A stretch of 64,000 nt of DNA from Psococerastis gibbosa (taxonomy: Eukaryota > Arthropoda > Insecta > Psocodea > Psocidae): NCBI GenBank assembly GCA_963971405.1, contig OZ020490.1:2294001-2358000 (forward strand), written 5' to 3'. Every line of letters begins with the position of its first letter. The stretch's first letter is position 1. The position numbers were made by a program, and so were the translations under genes. Positions 56,849 to 64,000 of the stretch are shown here, one piece after another. The notes under the pieces are model-generated. The model did not search any database, was not told the DNA's origin, and saw nothing but the letters and a program-made list of their open reading frames with translations.

Positions 56849-57894
56849 GTACTATTCCTTATCCCTGTTTAGTTAGGGTGGATTCTAATATGGTCCCTAC
56901 AACCCTATTGTTCACTTTATGTACCCAATTGCCGACATTCGCCTCTATATCAAATGCCTGATTCGACAAACTCTCAACGTCCCCATAACTTATATCAATC
57001 CGTGTTTTATTGTGAGCTATTGCTCCGTTTTTATTTTTTACCAAATATATGACATGTTTCTTACTCAACTATTATTTTGATTTTCGACAATATTGGTTGG
57101 GTCTCGTTTTACGTTTTACTGCGCCTTCTCCTCATGCAGGGTCGGCGGCACGACAGCAGCGTTTCCACACAGTCCTGTTGTGTGCTTCCTCGGTGGAGAG
57201 CCCCAAACTTGTCATATCTTCGGCGATCTTTCTTCTCAGTGTAACTTTCGGCCTACCTGGTGGTCTTCTTCCTTGTATCTCCAGTTTCATTGCTTATTTT
57301 TGTCATTATTTTAGCAGTTTACCATTTTTGTTGTTATCATTTTCCATGAAACTGATTATTCGTAACAGTTCTGTCGCCTATCAGTTTCACAGAAAACCCC
57401 GGCTGCACCAAAACTAAAGAAAAACATCCTCGTAGTACTATGTATGAAATAGCCCTCTGCCAATTGAACAGATCAAATCGTTGTAACTTTAATATTAAAT
57501 TATATTAAAATTAAAAACTAACCTACTTTGGGATGTTCCAGGGTGGCTGGCCAATATCTACTGTCAGCTTTTTATTTAAGTTACTGTTGGAGCGTAAGTT
57601 TCATACATTAAACATTGAGTTAATGCAGTAATGTACATGTACAATACATGTATAAAAGATTGTATTATCTCGGTAAAGAGGTCCCCACAGGGCACTGGGT
57701 AACCTGCAATGCGACAACATTGAAAATAAGGGCACCTATGAATAATAAAACATGCACAGGGTGTCAAATAAATAGGTAGTGACTTTTCTAGCTGCATTTA
57801 TAGACCAGTTTAATAGAGTTTTTCCCCCCACATCAAAATTCACCATTATAAGTGAGAAAATGAATGAATGAAAAAGTATTTTGTCAAAAAATCG
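56849..57894. other. No gene recognised
   Basis: ORFs at 57,049-57,417 and 57,093-57,314 overlap in different frames and show no domain. ATGAAATA(G/T)CCTCTGCCA near 57,444 recurs near 21,880, a small unclassified repeat. Confidence 0.35.
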
Positions 57895-59485: not shown

Positions 59486-59601
59486 TTTATTACGTGCCGA
59501 GCGCACCTGCGGGATGCGTTATTGGCCCTTTTTGGGCAACAATGTCGTAGCATAATAATTGCCAATTAAAACTAACCGTATTTTCCTTCTTTTTGTTGCA
59601 G

Positions 59602-59805
59602 GTGTACCTTTTCCTCCTAGTCATAAGTTAACAATAAATGAAGTGTTCGACACACGGACGGGCAAACCGAAGCCCGAAGTTCTCAAGGAACACTTCATCC
59701 TGGAGGGGAGGATAGACGAGCCTGCGGCCCTTAGGATAATCAATGACGGGGCGACGTTGCTGCGCTCCGAGCGGACTATGATAGATATAGAGGCACCTGT
59801 AACAG
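59602..59805 (+). CDS. CanA: Calcineurin A (PP2B catalytic subunit), internal exon
   Basis: The 204 nt exon has a strong pyrimidine tract and acceptor (TTTTTGTTGCAG|GT) and donor ACAG|GTAAGC. It encodes 67 full codons from [10 protein letters not shown] through [14 protein letters not shown] to DIEAPVT, the N-terminal part of the phosphatase domain just before the CGDIHGQ metal-binding motif. It begins with two bases of a split codon and ends with one, matching what I recall of the vertebrate gene (after ...DAPVT|V). Calcineurin A with regulatory subunit B dephosphorylates targets in response to calcium-calmodulin in the cytosol. The preceding exon (ending in a short (D/E)RVV segment) and the following exons are not recognisable in this window; introns are therefore long. 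The ORF open upstream to 59,559 is read-through into the intron. Confidence 0.95.
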
Positions 59806-60179
59806 GTAAGCCAAGTATTAATAAGTATGAAAGTTGTGTTTGCGGTGATTGTGGCTATGCCGCGAGAGTTACACTTGTAATTTATAGACCAGGCTAAAGA
59901 TCTTGGGCGGGCCTTTTATTTGATATGCGACATGACACCATTTGTATTTTAAAATTTGGCGATAAACTGGCCATTTGAGCCTCCGAAAAAGGAAATTAAG
60001 AATAACTGGGCAAAGCTCATGAGATATGGCTTTCGCTGCCTTCTACTTGTGAAACCGATGGTACCCGTAACCTACAAGTGGTCCTGATATTAGTGCCAAT
60101 ATGGAATTTGTCGTAACCTTCCGATATGTTTGAGAAAAATCCACTATAACTCGTCCACCATAATAACTCATACTGTATG

Positions 60180-60900
60180 TCTGTTTCAATTGTCGCAAAA
60201 TTAACTATTTGATATGCTTGAAAAAATCAGCCTCTGCCAGGTACCACCACCGTCATTCCTTGACTGACAAGCCAACCACATTACCCCATAACTCATCCAA
60301 TGTAACTAACTGACAAGTTAGTTTCAACTGTCGCAAAATTAACCATTTCATATGATTGAGAAAAATCTGCCACTGACTGGAACCACTACCGCCGCTTCGT
60401 ACCTTCACTGTCAAGCCAGCCACTTTACCCATTGACTTATCCAACATAACGGGTGAGTCAGTTTCAAGTGCCGCCAAATTAACCATTTGACGTGTTTGAG
60501 AAAACCAGGCTCCGAAACGACCACCATCGTACCTTGACTGTCAAGCCAGCCACTGGCACTTTACCCCTTGACTTATCCAACAAACCAACCACTTCACCCC
60601 ATAACTCATCCAACATAAGTGGCAAGTCTTGTTTCAATTGTCGCCAAATCAACCATCTGACATGTTTGAGAAAAACCAGGCTCCGAAACTACCACCATCA
60701 CACCTTGACTGTCAAACCAGCCACTTTACCCCTTGACTCATTCAACGTAACAGTTTCAAGTGTCGCAAAATTAACTATTTGACATGTTTGAGAAAAACTA
60801 GGCTCCAAAATGGCAACCTTCGCAGCTTGACTGACAAACCAACCACTTTACCCCATAACTCATCCAACATAACTCGCAAGTCTGTTTCAATTGTCACAAA
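60180..60900 (+). repeat. Intronic tandem array, ~120-170 bp unit, 5-6 copies
   Basis: AACCATTTGACGTGTTTGAG and variants recur at about 60,206, 60,342, 60,480, 60,650 and 60,770. Each is followed by A-rich and CCACCATCG..CCTTGACTG(T)CAAGCCAGCC, then TTACCCC and ACTCATCCAAC. Frames through it on both strands are open by repetition and are not genes. Confidence 0.9.
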
Positions 60901-61351: not shown

Positions 61352-61435
61352 AAGCTTGTCTCGGCTTGTCCATTATTGCTTGTGACTGTGTTGGGTTGGC
61401 ATCGAAGACTTGTACCCTCTTGCCAATGACCAGTA
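61352..61435 (-). repeat. Family 3 fragment
   Basis: AAGCTTGTCTCGGCTTGTCCATTATTGCTTG...CTTGCCAATGACCA. Confidence 0.65.
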
Positions 61436-61439
61436 GTAG

Positions 61440-62040
61440 TATAGAAAGGGCGGTTCTGGCACAAAATCCCAGCTATCCCATCTATCCCACCCCGTCGTGC
61501 TATCCCCCGCGGGTGGTCTATCTATTTTTGTGTGTTATCCCTCGTGGGTGGTCTGAGGTTCTGGCACAAATCCCACCCCCCGTCGAGCTATCCCATCTAT
61601 CCCACCCCGTCGTGCTATCCCCCGCGGGTGGTCTATCTATTTTTGCGTGTTGTCCCTCGTGGGTGGTCTGAGGTTCTGGCGCTTACCCCACCCCCTGTCG
61701 AGCTACCCATCTACCCCCCCCCCCCCGTCATGCTACCCCTCGTGGATGGTCTGAGGTTCTGGCGCTTATCCCCCCCCCCCATCGAGACCCGTGGGTGGTC
61801 TTTCTATGGCACTATGATTGTTTTTTTTTTTGTATAATTACTAATTTGTGAGACACAGAGTTATATTTTTTTTATTTTTTTTATTTTTTATTTTTTTTTT
61901 TAATGGTGTTAATTGAATTAAAACATTTCTTTCTTCTTCTTTCTTCTTCGTGGGTGGTCTTTGTACCCCGCCGTGCTTATCCCGTTGTCTATCTATCTCT
62001 GTACCAGGTGGGTGGTCTATGACGCACCCCCCCCCCTCCC
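61440..62040 (+). repeat. GTGGGTGGTCT minisatellite
   Basis: A compound array of CCCACCCCGTCG(T/A)GCTATCC, CGTGGGTGGTCT and GAGGTTCTGGC(A/G)C units, with one ~124 bp higher-order unit nearly exact (about 61,465-61,575 against 61,589-61,695). C runs and a T-rich stretch (61,867-61,903) break it up. The GGGTGGTC motif continues to 62,010 and reappears at 63,329, directly before the second leader block. Confidence 0.85.
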
Positions 62041-62072
62041 CGTACAGCGTACATCTAGAATGTTCCAAATGT

Positions 62073-62180
62073 GTCGTTACAAAAGGCATCGCCTTGGGTT
62101 GAGGAGCTTAGTTGAAGCCAAACCTTCATTCAAGACTCAAGTAATACCACTTTATAAGTAAAATTGTATAATCTTACAAC
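62073..62180 (+). promoter_or_regulatory. Shared leader block A
   Basis: GTCGTTACAAAAGGCATCGCCTTGGGTTGAGGAGC and the following TTAGTTGAA are almost identical to 63,338-63,381. Then AACCTTCATTC, TAATACCACTT and a divergent end lead to the ATG. AAGGC-ATC-GCCTT is a small hairpin. It probably holds the core promoter and 5'UTR; which base starts transcription is not visible. Confidence 0.7.
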
Positions 62181-62486
62181 ATGACATCTCTATTCAATAA
62201 AGTTAATGCCATCAACCAAGTAGCCGGGCCTACCATACCAATGCGAAAACTAGTGATTGGAGTTAAATACCTAATATTGAAAATAGTGCAAATCGAAAAA
62301 ACAGAATATGGACCAGCTGTAAAAGTCATACTGCGAGGATTGGAAAAAGAAGTCGTGGAATGTTTTGTGCCTCAACAATATCTGCCAGCCTTTCAACAAA
62401 GTGAAGTTACTCCAGGAGCTGAGATGTATCTTATCGTTTCAAGCCATCGGGGAAAAAATAGTGTCAACCTACAGATCATAGAATGA
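62181..62486 (+). CDS. Small conserved-looking protein, 101 aa, intronless
   Basis: The ATG is well placed (AACATG) 108 nt after the start of leader A. The protein has a beta-rich pattern with a TEYGPAV turn at 41-47, FVPQQYLPAF at 62-71 and a final beta segment ending in NLQIIE. No signal peptide or membrane segment. I do not recognise a named family. The strand-turn layout recalls small OB-fold-like proteins that recur in arthropod genomes next to mobile elements, but that is an impression. An uninterrupted frame, a shared leader with the zinc-finger gene downstream and TGA followed by AT-rich 3' sequence support a real gene or a recent copy. If functional, nucleic-acid binding is the first guess. 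Confidence 0.7.
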   Translation: MTSLFNKVNAINQVAGPTIPMRKLVIGVKYLILKIVQIEKTEYGPAVKVILRGLEKEVVECFVPQQYLPAFQQSEVTPGAEMYLIVSSHRGKNSVNLQIIE

Positions 62487-62754
62487 ATATTTCATGATGT
62501 ATTATTATTGTAAACTACAGAAATAATGTAAATATATGAATAATTTCTATATATATTTTGTTCTTGTTTTATTAATTTCATAACTAGTTTTAAGCTTACA
62601 GTTAGATGATGATGAGTATTAAAAACTAATGTTTGAAAGAAACAAGCTATTGCTTCAGTCATAATCGAGTACTTGAACGGTGAAGGGTTATCATAATCAT
62701 AGACTATGAAATGATGTAAATCAAATAATTAAACGAGTACATTAGCTAATTTTA
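62487..62754. other. 3' flank of the 101 aa gene
   Basis: AT-rich. TTTAATAAATC near 62,753 and other AATAAA-like strings could serve for polyadenylation. Confidence 0.35.
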
Positions 62755-63240
62755 ATAAATCTATCCGAAGCATAGGTTTATGGGAAGTATTGATTTGGTA
62801 AATAGTTAACCGTGTGCAGGTTCAAACCTGTTGTGAATCACCAGGTGCATATAACTCTGTACAGCCGTCTAATGGTTCAGACAAACAACACATTAATAAA
62901 TCTACCCCTCGCGGACAGTCCATTGTAAGCTAAAGTGATTTTTGTTTTCGTAAATCTATCCAACACTTAGGTTGAAGGGAAGTATTGATTTGGTAAACAA
63001 ATAACAGGGTGCAGGTTCAAACCTGTTGTGAATCACCAGGTGCATCCAACACTTAGGTTGAAGGGAAGTATTGATTTGGTAAACAGAGTGCAGGTTCAAA
63101 CCTGTTGTGAATCACCAGGTGCATATAACTCTGTACAGCCGACTTATGGCTCAAACAAACAAGCCATTAATAAGTCTACCCCTCGCTGACAGTCCATTGT
63201 AAGCTAAAGTGATTTTTGTTTTTGCATTAGTTGCAATCGA
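62755..63240 (+). repeat. Tandem repeats between the two intronless genes
   Basis: GAAGTATTGATTTGGTAAA plus GTGCAGGTTCAAACCTGTTG plus TGAATCACCAGGTGCAT occurs three times (about 62,788, 62,971 and 63,067). GACAGTCCATTGTAAGCTAAAGTGATTTTTG occurs twice (62,915 and 63,189). AGGTTCAAACCT is palindromic. Confidence 0.88.
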
Positions 63241-63337
63241 TCGTTAGAAAATGAATGGTGTCTTAACAACATATTATCCGCTTCGTGATGGACAATCTAT
63301 CCCTGTACCCTTACCGTCTATCCTTCATGGGTGGTCG

Positions 63338-63439
63338 TCGCTACAAAAGGCATCGCCTTGGGTTGAGGAGCTTAGTTGAAACCGAACCTTCATTCGCGTA
63401 ATACCACTTCAGTGTAGTGAATTTGTGTAATCGTACAGC
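63338..63439 (+). promoter_or_regulatory. Shared leader block B
   Basis: Homolog of leader A with the same distance and order of blocks. Here CCACTTCAGTGTAG contains TCAGT, an arthropod initiator-like string, about 30 nt before the ATG. Preceded by CATGGGTGGTC, the minisatellite motif. Confidence 0.7.
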
Positions 63440-64000
63440 ATGGAATCGAAGAAAAGGAAACTGAACGCGAGGGAATATGTGTGTAGAATATGTGCTGTGA
63501 GTTTCACACTAAATTGCAATTTAAAAAGACATGTCATAAACAAACATGGAGTTAGTATTATACCATGCAAAAAATGTAAAGCCACATTCACATGCAGAGA
63601 GGACCTATCTCATCATATATTGCAGCGGCATACATCAGCAAATCACGGGATGGAAATTGTACAAACTCGCCCAAAACTGACATCTGCTGGGAATGGAGAG
63701 GACTGCAAGGCATGCGGGGGCAAAATCAACAACTCCAGTCCACTTACAGTTCTGTGTAAAGAATGTTCATCTATCTTTTCGTGTAAGTATGAGAATCCTG
63801 TATCTGTTAAAACCCTTGAGTGTAAATATATTTGTGAATTCTGTTCGGTCCCTTTTGCTCGGAAGTATAGTTTGAAAGTCCACATATTAAGCATACATAT
63901 TATTAATTGTTTGAATTGCAAGAAATTGTTTATGAGGGAAGATTTTACTAATCATAAGAATAATTGCACAATTATGAGCGGGGGAACACTATCTAACGAG
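63440..64000 (+). CDS. C2H2/zinc-ribbon protein, intronless, 3' end outside window
   Basis: Open from ATG 63,440 through the last base (187 codons, no stop). N-terminus has a basic KKRKL stretch that could be a nuclear signal. C2H2 fingers lie at 15-36 and 43-64 (both C-x2-C-x12-H-x4-H). A CxxC...CxxC zinc-ribbon-like pair follows at 89-92 and 106-109. A third C2H2 finger is at 132-153 and a CCHC-like finger at 157-176. The fingers lack TGEKP linkers, so this is not a typical KRAB- or ZAD-like array. It shares its leader with the 101-residue gene upstream but no protein similarity. The downstream part, which could carry an enzymatic domain, is not visible. DNA binding is inferred from the fingers only. 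Confidence 0.82.
   Translation, partial: MESKKRKLNAREYVCRICAVSFTLNCNLKRHVINKHGVSIIPCKKCKATFTCREDLSHHILQRHTSANHGMEIVQTRPKLTSAGNGEDCKACGGKINNSSPLTVLCKECSSIFSCKYENPVSVKTLECKYICEFCSVPFARKYSLKVHILSIHIINCLNCKKLFMREDFTNHKNNCTIMSGGTLSNE

Follow-up and report, generated by a model that had tools for sequence, protein, structure and literature searches.

Why should two unrelated genes lie close together behind nearly the same leader? The question is raised by a 64,000-nucleotide stretch of the genome of the insect Psococerastis gibbosa (contig OZ020490.1, C15:2294001-2358000; genome of 409 Mb in 68 contigs), hereafter the window; positions on C15 that lie beyond it belong to the same contig. A first-pass annotation had noticed homologous leader blocks with a nearly unchanged core ahead of a 101-aa gene and a zinc-finger gene close to the right edge of the window, and had suggested a multigene mobile or virus-derived element. 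The structure forms the left end of a virus-like DNA element integrated in the genome, a Polinton/Maverick, and the suggestion is supported by its gene set, its terminal inverted repeats (TIRs) and its target-site duplication (TSD). Taken as a whole, it is very probable that the window holds the left end of a recently active Polinton, that its leader is shared by replication genes, and that a derivative lineage with two left arms exists beside it.

Structure and Gene Content of the Element

The element is 14,737 bp long (C15:2355435-2370171), beginning at window position 61435 and extending past the window end. The left copy of its TSD, ACCAGT, occupies 61429-61434, and the right copy stands directly after the right terminus at C15:2370171. 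The left TIR (61435-63295), with the terminus AGTAGTATAG, was compared with the inverted right copy (locus L031, 433-2053 and 2044-2295, vs L032): the TIRs are about 1.86 kb long, and left and right are 98.6% identical over the first ~1.62 kb and 95% over the next 252 bp. The termini of the element are AGTAGT, and the leader together with the 101-aa gene (62181-62486, plus strand) lies inside both TIRs. The first-pass annotation had proposed to look in the adjoining DNA for terminal repeats and for polymerase, integrase or capsid genes; all four are present just outside the window.

The second gene, polB, starts at 63440 on the plus strand and is cut by the window end. Its first 187 codons (63440-64000) do encode C2H2 zinc fingers, as annotated; read past the window to the gene end at C15:2361420, however, the open reading frame (ORF) encodes a protein of 1326 aa, made up of the C2H2 fingers, a weak EndoVII-like stretch and a family B DNA polymerase. 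Over 426 aa, the polymerase part shows 39% identity to a protein encoded in the same genome, which matches PF03175 (DNA_pol_B_2) at 6.4e-22. Past polB, genes on the opposite strand encode a double-jelly-roll capsid protein (MCP; PF21738, 3.4e-90), a 231-aa ORF, a protease-like protein and a PLA2-domain protein. These are followed by a forward packaging ATPase (Pox_A32, 24.2 bits vs a cut-off of 22.8) with the Walker A-like motif GPSGCGKT, a 232-aa ORF, an rve integrase (INT; PF00665, 41.7 bits vs a cut-off of 32.6), which also matches retroviral integrase chains at E 1e-4 and weaker, then reversed 165-aa and 233-aa genes and the second 101-aa gene.

Several of these assignments are less secure and weigh against the overall interpretation. 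The polymerase of the window family has no direct Pfam DNA_pol_B_2 match and was assigned through its 39% identical relative. The EndoVII match falls below the Pfam cut-off (21.8 vs 23.6 bits), as does the Peptidase_C5 match of the adenain-like protease (17.1 vs 21.3 bits), and the 231-aa ORF adjoining the capsid gene, the presumed penton, gave no family match of note. Folded alone, the 101-aa protein reached a pLDDT of 47 with an OB-like strand order of low confidence; it may be a replication partner, perhaps a single-stranded DNA-binding protein. Scans of PHROGs and NCBIfam returned little besides EndoVII and transposase matches. Scans of IMG/VR with the 101-aa protein, the leader core and the MCP returned no matches, and hence no relatives outside this genome.

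Another type of polB element in the same genome (L033-L035 and L039-L041; e.g. C1:10058027, C19:31437538 and C1:5845483) is without the N-terminal zinc fingers. The polymerases of this type (L033-L035 and L039-L043) were considered as possible intermediates and set aside; the weak likeness between an ORF beside the other-type polB and the 101-aa protein (E 0.023 over 32 residues) was not used.

The repeats of the left end also belong to the element. The first-pass annotation had placed a minisatellite motif ahead of each ORF; the GGGTGGTC repeats (61471-62040) are part of the TIR, and one further GGGTGGTC stands beside the leader of polB. Repeats with units of 51-144 bp fill the inner TIR 3' of the 101-aa gene (62750-63222). 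At the inner limit of the TIR, the truncated first codons of the 233-aa gene remain (63251-63295, plus strand), the complete copy lying at the right end (L032:2741-3442, minus strand).

A Leader Shared by the 101-aa Gene and polB

Leader A (62073-62183, core 62082-62116) precedes the 101-aa gene and leader B (63337-63442, core 63346-63380) precedes polB, both on the plus strand. The leader is about 80-110 bp long, with one copy ahead of each of the two genes. Over the first 59 bp the two copies are 95% identical without gaps, and homology continues to both start codons. The 35-bp core occurs twice in the window with 0 mismatches, against 0.00 expected (100 shuffles). The homology noticed at first is thus confirmed, and so is the unrelatedness of the two proteins, the 101-aa ORF and the ORF from 63440 having no Pfam family in common. 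Cross-scores were 120 in both directions (leader A vs polB region, leader B vs 101-aa region). Ahead of the nine other gene starts of the element (MCP, 231-aa, protease, PLA2 with 101 bp only, ATPase, 232-aa, INT, 165-aa and 233-aa), the leader scored at shuffle level only, and a leader common to all gene starts was therefore rejected.

The core is abundant, with 496 occurrences genome-wide at no more than 3 mismatches and 0 for the reversed control. Such a number could suggest an ordinary dispersed repeat that landed by chance before two genes, and the first-pass annotation had named a core found mostly without ORFs as the sign of one. Nevertheless, in 20/20 fetched loci, a biased set comprising the best-scoring 20 of 40 scored, the repeat proved to be the element's leader A, followed immediately by the start codon of the 101-aa gene, and the pairing of the leader with both genes recurs in a diverged family. 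Chance placement is accordingly most improbable.

That diverged, sister family differs in gene arrangement. Its leader block was found before the 101-aa gene (L097) and before polB (L098), and in L098 also before an inverted 101-aa stub beside polB, in a copy without the first ~15 bases of the block. Between the families, the block is conserved from GTTGAGG (62098 in leader A) to the ATG. The sequence 5' of GTTGAGG shows no between-family excess (similarity 62 vs a shuffled mean of 68.5). Within the window family, by contrast, 24 further bp there are common to leaders A and B. Because the leader precedes both genes in the sister family as well, it is most likely a shared promoter/5' untranslated region of a replication module formed by the 101-aa gene and polB. 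Such a leader would switch on both replication genes together, and the cassette may at times have been re-copied or homogenised between them.

Two comparisons count against this interpretation. The between-family identity of the leader (73/82 aligned bases) is not significantly higher than that of fourfold sites in the 101-aa gene (28/36; Fisher p = 0.15), and the 150 bases that directly follow the 101-aa gene on its 3' side are equally similar between families (124/137 aligned). Selection on the leader is therefore not proven. In addition, the leader could be a replication or packaging signal, for instance a recognition site of the polymerase or the zinc fingers, that abuts two start codons by chance. 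Its presence in both TIRs, close to the termini at which replication would begin if protein-primed, would suit a signal of this kind, as would the 24 bp that A and B share 5' of the between-family block, as if copied or homogenised. This alternative deserves more weight than a dispersed repeat but is unlikely, given that the conserved block reaches an ATG in all five copies compared (four at start codons of the two genes and one at the shortened stub copy) and that leader B lies outside the TIR, at the polB end only.

Copy Number and Recent Activity

Copies of the element are numerous and nearly identical. All 150 scored matches of the 101-aa protein (377 candidates) were 99-100% identical and none contained stops. 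For the MCP, at least 83 matches at 99-100% (one with a stop) and at least 20 of a 92% sister class were found; for INT, at least 84 at 98-100% (four with a stop) and at least 46 of a 93-94% class. The 101-aa gene in 39 arms fell into five DNA haplotypes, at most 4 differences apart, and both ends bore the same haplotype in 9/11 element pairs, the exceptions being C1:3435570 and L015/L016. In the first locus set, the 6-bp flanks matched in 5/6 other end pairs (L006/L007, L009/L010, L011/L012, L015/L016 and L017/L018); the non-matching pair, L002/L003, is a palindromic copy. As judged from these sequences, the element family has been active very recently.

Two copies about 27 kb apart, C2:7920537 (L014) and C2:7947790 (L013), share the same 30-base left flank and are therefore probably the result of segmental duplication after insertion.

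Palindromic Copies With Two Left Ends

Many elements hold four leader cores in the order A-B-B'-A'. These palindromic copies consist of two arms with the 101-aa gene and polB around one common junction. The 150 listed polB starts fall into three groups: 58 that make up 29 inverted pairs with spacings below 20 kb, 52 unpaired ones with a capsid gene on the opposite strand within 7 kb (51 at the usual spacing), and 40 unpaired ones for which no capsid gene is listed. Three of the 29 inverted pairs enclose a listed capsid gene and so are not of the simple form.

In all four centres read, the 3' end of polB is followed by 71 bp from the 3' end of the capsid gene and these by satellite, which the two stretches of the complete element compared do not contain. 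Neither integrase sequence nor capsid sequence beyond the 71 bp is present in these four centres; for the other palindromic copies, we infer gene content from the lists together with the junction. In L092, the palindrome is perfect: of its 3475 bases, all pair except the central one. The arms are 99.9% (851 bp) and 99.5% (1140 bp) identical in L093 and L094, respectively, with uneven satellite between them, and L095 has identical 957-bp arms, uneven satellite and a 200-N gap. The centre satellite (L092-L095, e.g. C1:41013338-41016812) is of ~155 bp and rich in TTAGG-like motifs, calling to mind the arthropod telomere repeat TTAGG.

Genome-wide counts are 239 for the derivative junction, 135 for the native polB-MCP junction (including sister copies) and 198 for the polB start, with reversed controls of 0. 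On C1, C2, C3 and C12, for which the listing is complete for exact matches, 45/90 exact polB starts lead to the derivative junction, 32/90 to the native one and 13/90 to neither. At 45 of the 92 derivative junctions on these contigs, a polB start stands at the expected distance; at 47 it does not. The first 100 listed junctions include 27 inverted pairs (54 junctions) spaced by less than 3 kb. Junctions without an exact polB start at the expected distance (e.g. C2:17079938/17081094) are perhaps still shorter palindromic derivatives.

Whether palindromes moved as such can be judged from their flanks. Ends were fetched for 20/29 pairs, and, with other loci included, 18 copies had both flanks readable (17 pairs and the short copy C2:27730423); C1:41009488, with a gap at the right flank, and other pairs with one terminus uncaught were left out of the count. 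Matching 6-bp flanks were found in 10/18 copies: C1:5878331, C1:27841435, C19:20484278, C19:15610655, C2:33278141, C2:27730423, C21:3774793, C3:45386566, C3:45528827 and C13:14295015, the last in a run of C. These duplications indicate that the palindromes themselves were integrated. The flanks of the remaining 8/18, which speak against that reading, do not match: C1:158539, C1:3435570, C1:25645554, C2:26390267, C2:41909704 (5/6 bases agree), C13:1810408, C13:1871063 and C14:4289383 (beside a gap). Some copies would thus have come about or been altered after insertion, or be misassembled.

It could accordingly be argued that palindromic copies in general are assembly artefacts or products of post-insertion recombination rather than mobile units. 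The eight differing flanks would agree with this, as would runs of N in L095 (200 N, at the centre), L063 and L069. Moreover, the two C13 copies without matching flanks, C13:1810408 and C13:1871063, lie 60 kb apart and share one flank crosswise, CATTAG standing to the left of the first and to the right of the second, as exchange between copies, or misassembly, would leave behind. However, nine of the ten matching flanks are at different sequences and one is in the run of C, and the same junction recurs in every centre read and 239 times in the genome. An origin of the whole class by artefact or later recombination is thus improbable, and integration of the palindromes as units is preferred. 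In some palindromes the two ends are of different terminus types, one AGTAGTATAG and the other AGTAGAGTAG, and arms therefore also recombine.

The ten flank-matched palindromes are 6.4-15.4 kb in size, seven of them 13.5-15.4 kb; for five elements in which MCP and INT are both present, the range is 14.6-15.2 kb. The agreement fits, without proving, a packaging limit.

Two-Right-End Forms and a Probable Mechanism

The opposite mirror form was found in the sister element L096/L097, which has at its left a mirrored right arm (101-aa gene, 233-aa gene, 165-aa gene and part of INT) joined to the remainder at polB codon ~1220. Inverted 233-aa pairs number seven among 57 listed sister-class rows, and two more were found by eye in the window family; besides L096/L097, this suggests eight further two-right-end places, of which six belong to the sister class and two to the window family. 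The idea that all sister elements are two-right-end, which would make a simple two-part system of complementary forms, was dropped in view of the seven inverted pairs among the 57 rows and the two in the window family. Both mirror forms seem to exist, as with the 5' and 3' snapback genomes of adeno-associated virus (AAV) in the available portion of one account (PMC8235507).

Probably, a strand displaced during DNA replication folds back on itself and is copied to give a mirror-image duplex, both ends of which are identical and integrase-competent; one such founder palindrome would then have been amplified. This model would explain the palindromy, the common junction (through one founder) and the duplications. 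The gene content implies a dependence of the palindromes on complete copies for capsid and integrase; amplification would have to borrow the integrase, and perhaps the capsid, from them. The palindromes might also interfere with complete elements, and hairpins formed by read-through might lead to RNA silencing. Tentatively, and at somewhat less than even probability, the genome may house a society of elements: complete Polintons, a palindromic lineage with two replication modules and more polymerase genes than the complete ones, which has lost and borrows capsid and integrase in order to spread, and rarer two-right-end forms that keep capsid and integrase without most of the polymerase.

Host Site

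Upstream of the insertion lies a host exon (59595-59807, plus strand; residues 13-83 of the ORF at 59559) that matches PP2B/calcineurin A chains at E 1.5e-21. On the same strand downstream, a weaker metallophosphatase match was found at C15:2400027 (E 1.4e-4, one internal stop). The element is therefore probably located in a calcineurin A intron, as first annotated. Tandem 122-140-bp repeats (60179-60873) stand directly ahead of the insertion, and a short ORF at 57132-57290 (minus strand) resembles, by eye, the tail of a non-LTR reverse transcriptase.

Comparison With Known Systems and Significance

The Polinton is of a known kind, here with a notable shared leader; the palindromic lineage is what is new. 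A PLA2 domain is a trait of adintoviruses, which the element resembles in its Polinton-type gene set with integrase and PLA2. For intact vertebrate Mavericks, the available part of a published description gives 6-bp duplications, the end motif (AGT)2, a length of 12.7-24.6 kb and TIRs of 46-1447 bp (PMC8097293). The present element shares with them PolB, integrase, ATPase, MCP, TIRs, 6-bp duplications, (AGT)2, size and intronless ORFs. Unlike the Mavericks of that partial text (PMC8097293), it has TIRs of ~1.86 kb with a whole gene and leader in both, zinc fingers N-terminal to polB, a paired leader and a palindromic derivative lineage.

Among the titles and abstract openings listed from the open-licence literature, none was found describing promoter-sharing, palindromic or non-autonomous Polintons, or protein-primed snapback Polinton genomes. 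Palindromic left-end defective genomes of adenovirus, in which two identical ends of a protein-primed linear DNA virus are mirror-joined, are known from virus stocks and not as an amplified integrated family. The snapback defective genomes of AAV likewise join two copies of one genome end in a palindrome, as far as described in the accessible text (PMC8235507). In that text (PMC8235507), the AAV DNA is packaged in particles, whereas the copies described here are integrated in the host genome, often retain an open polymerase gene in each arm, and have spread, many with TSDs.

The shared leader on two unrelated replication genes, kept in two families, provides a handle on the timing of element genes. 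Polintons are thought to be integrated viruses, the virions and replication intermediates of which are hard to catch. Palindromes with TSDs would record fold-back replication products in a genome and would show that the integrase accepts DNA with two left ends, whereby the replication mode of Polintons becomes testable. Should the palindromes be mobilised in trans, a host genome would allow defective-interfering dynamics to be studied over evolutionary time. And if the society of elements proves true, it would amount to a counterpart of snapback defective interfering genomes that is integrated and heritable, or else to an early two-part virus.

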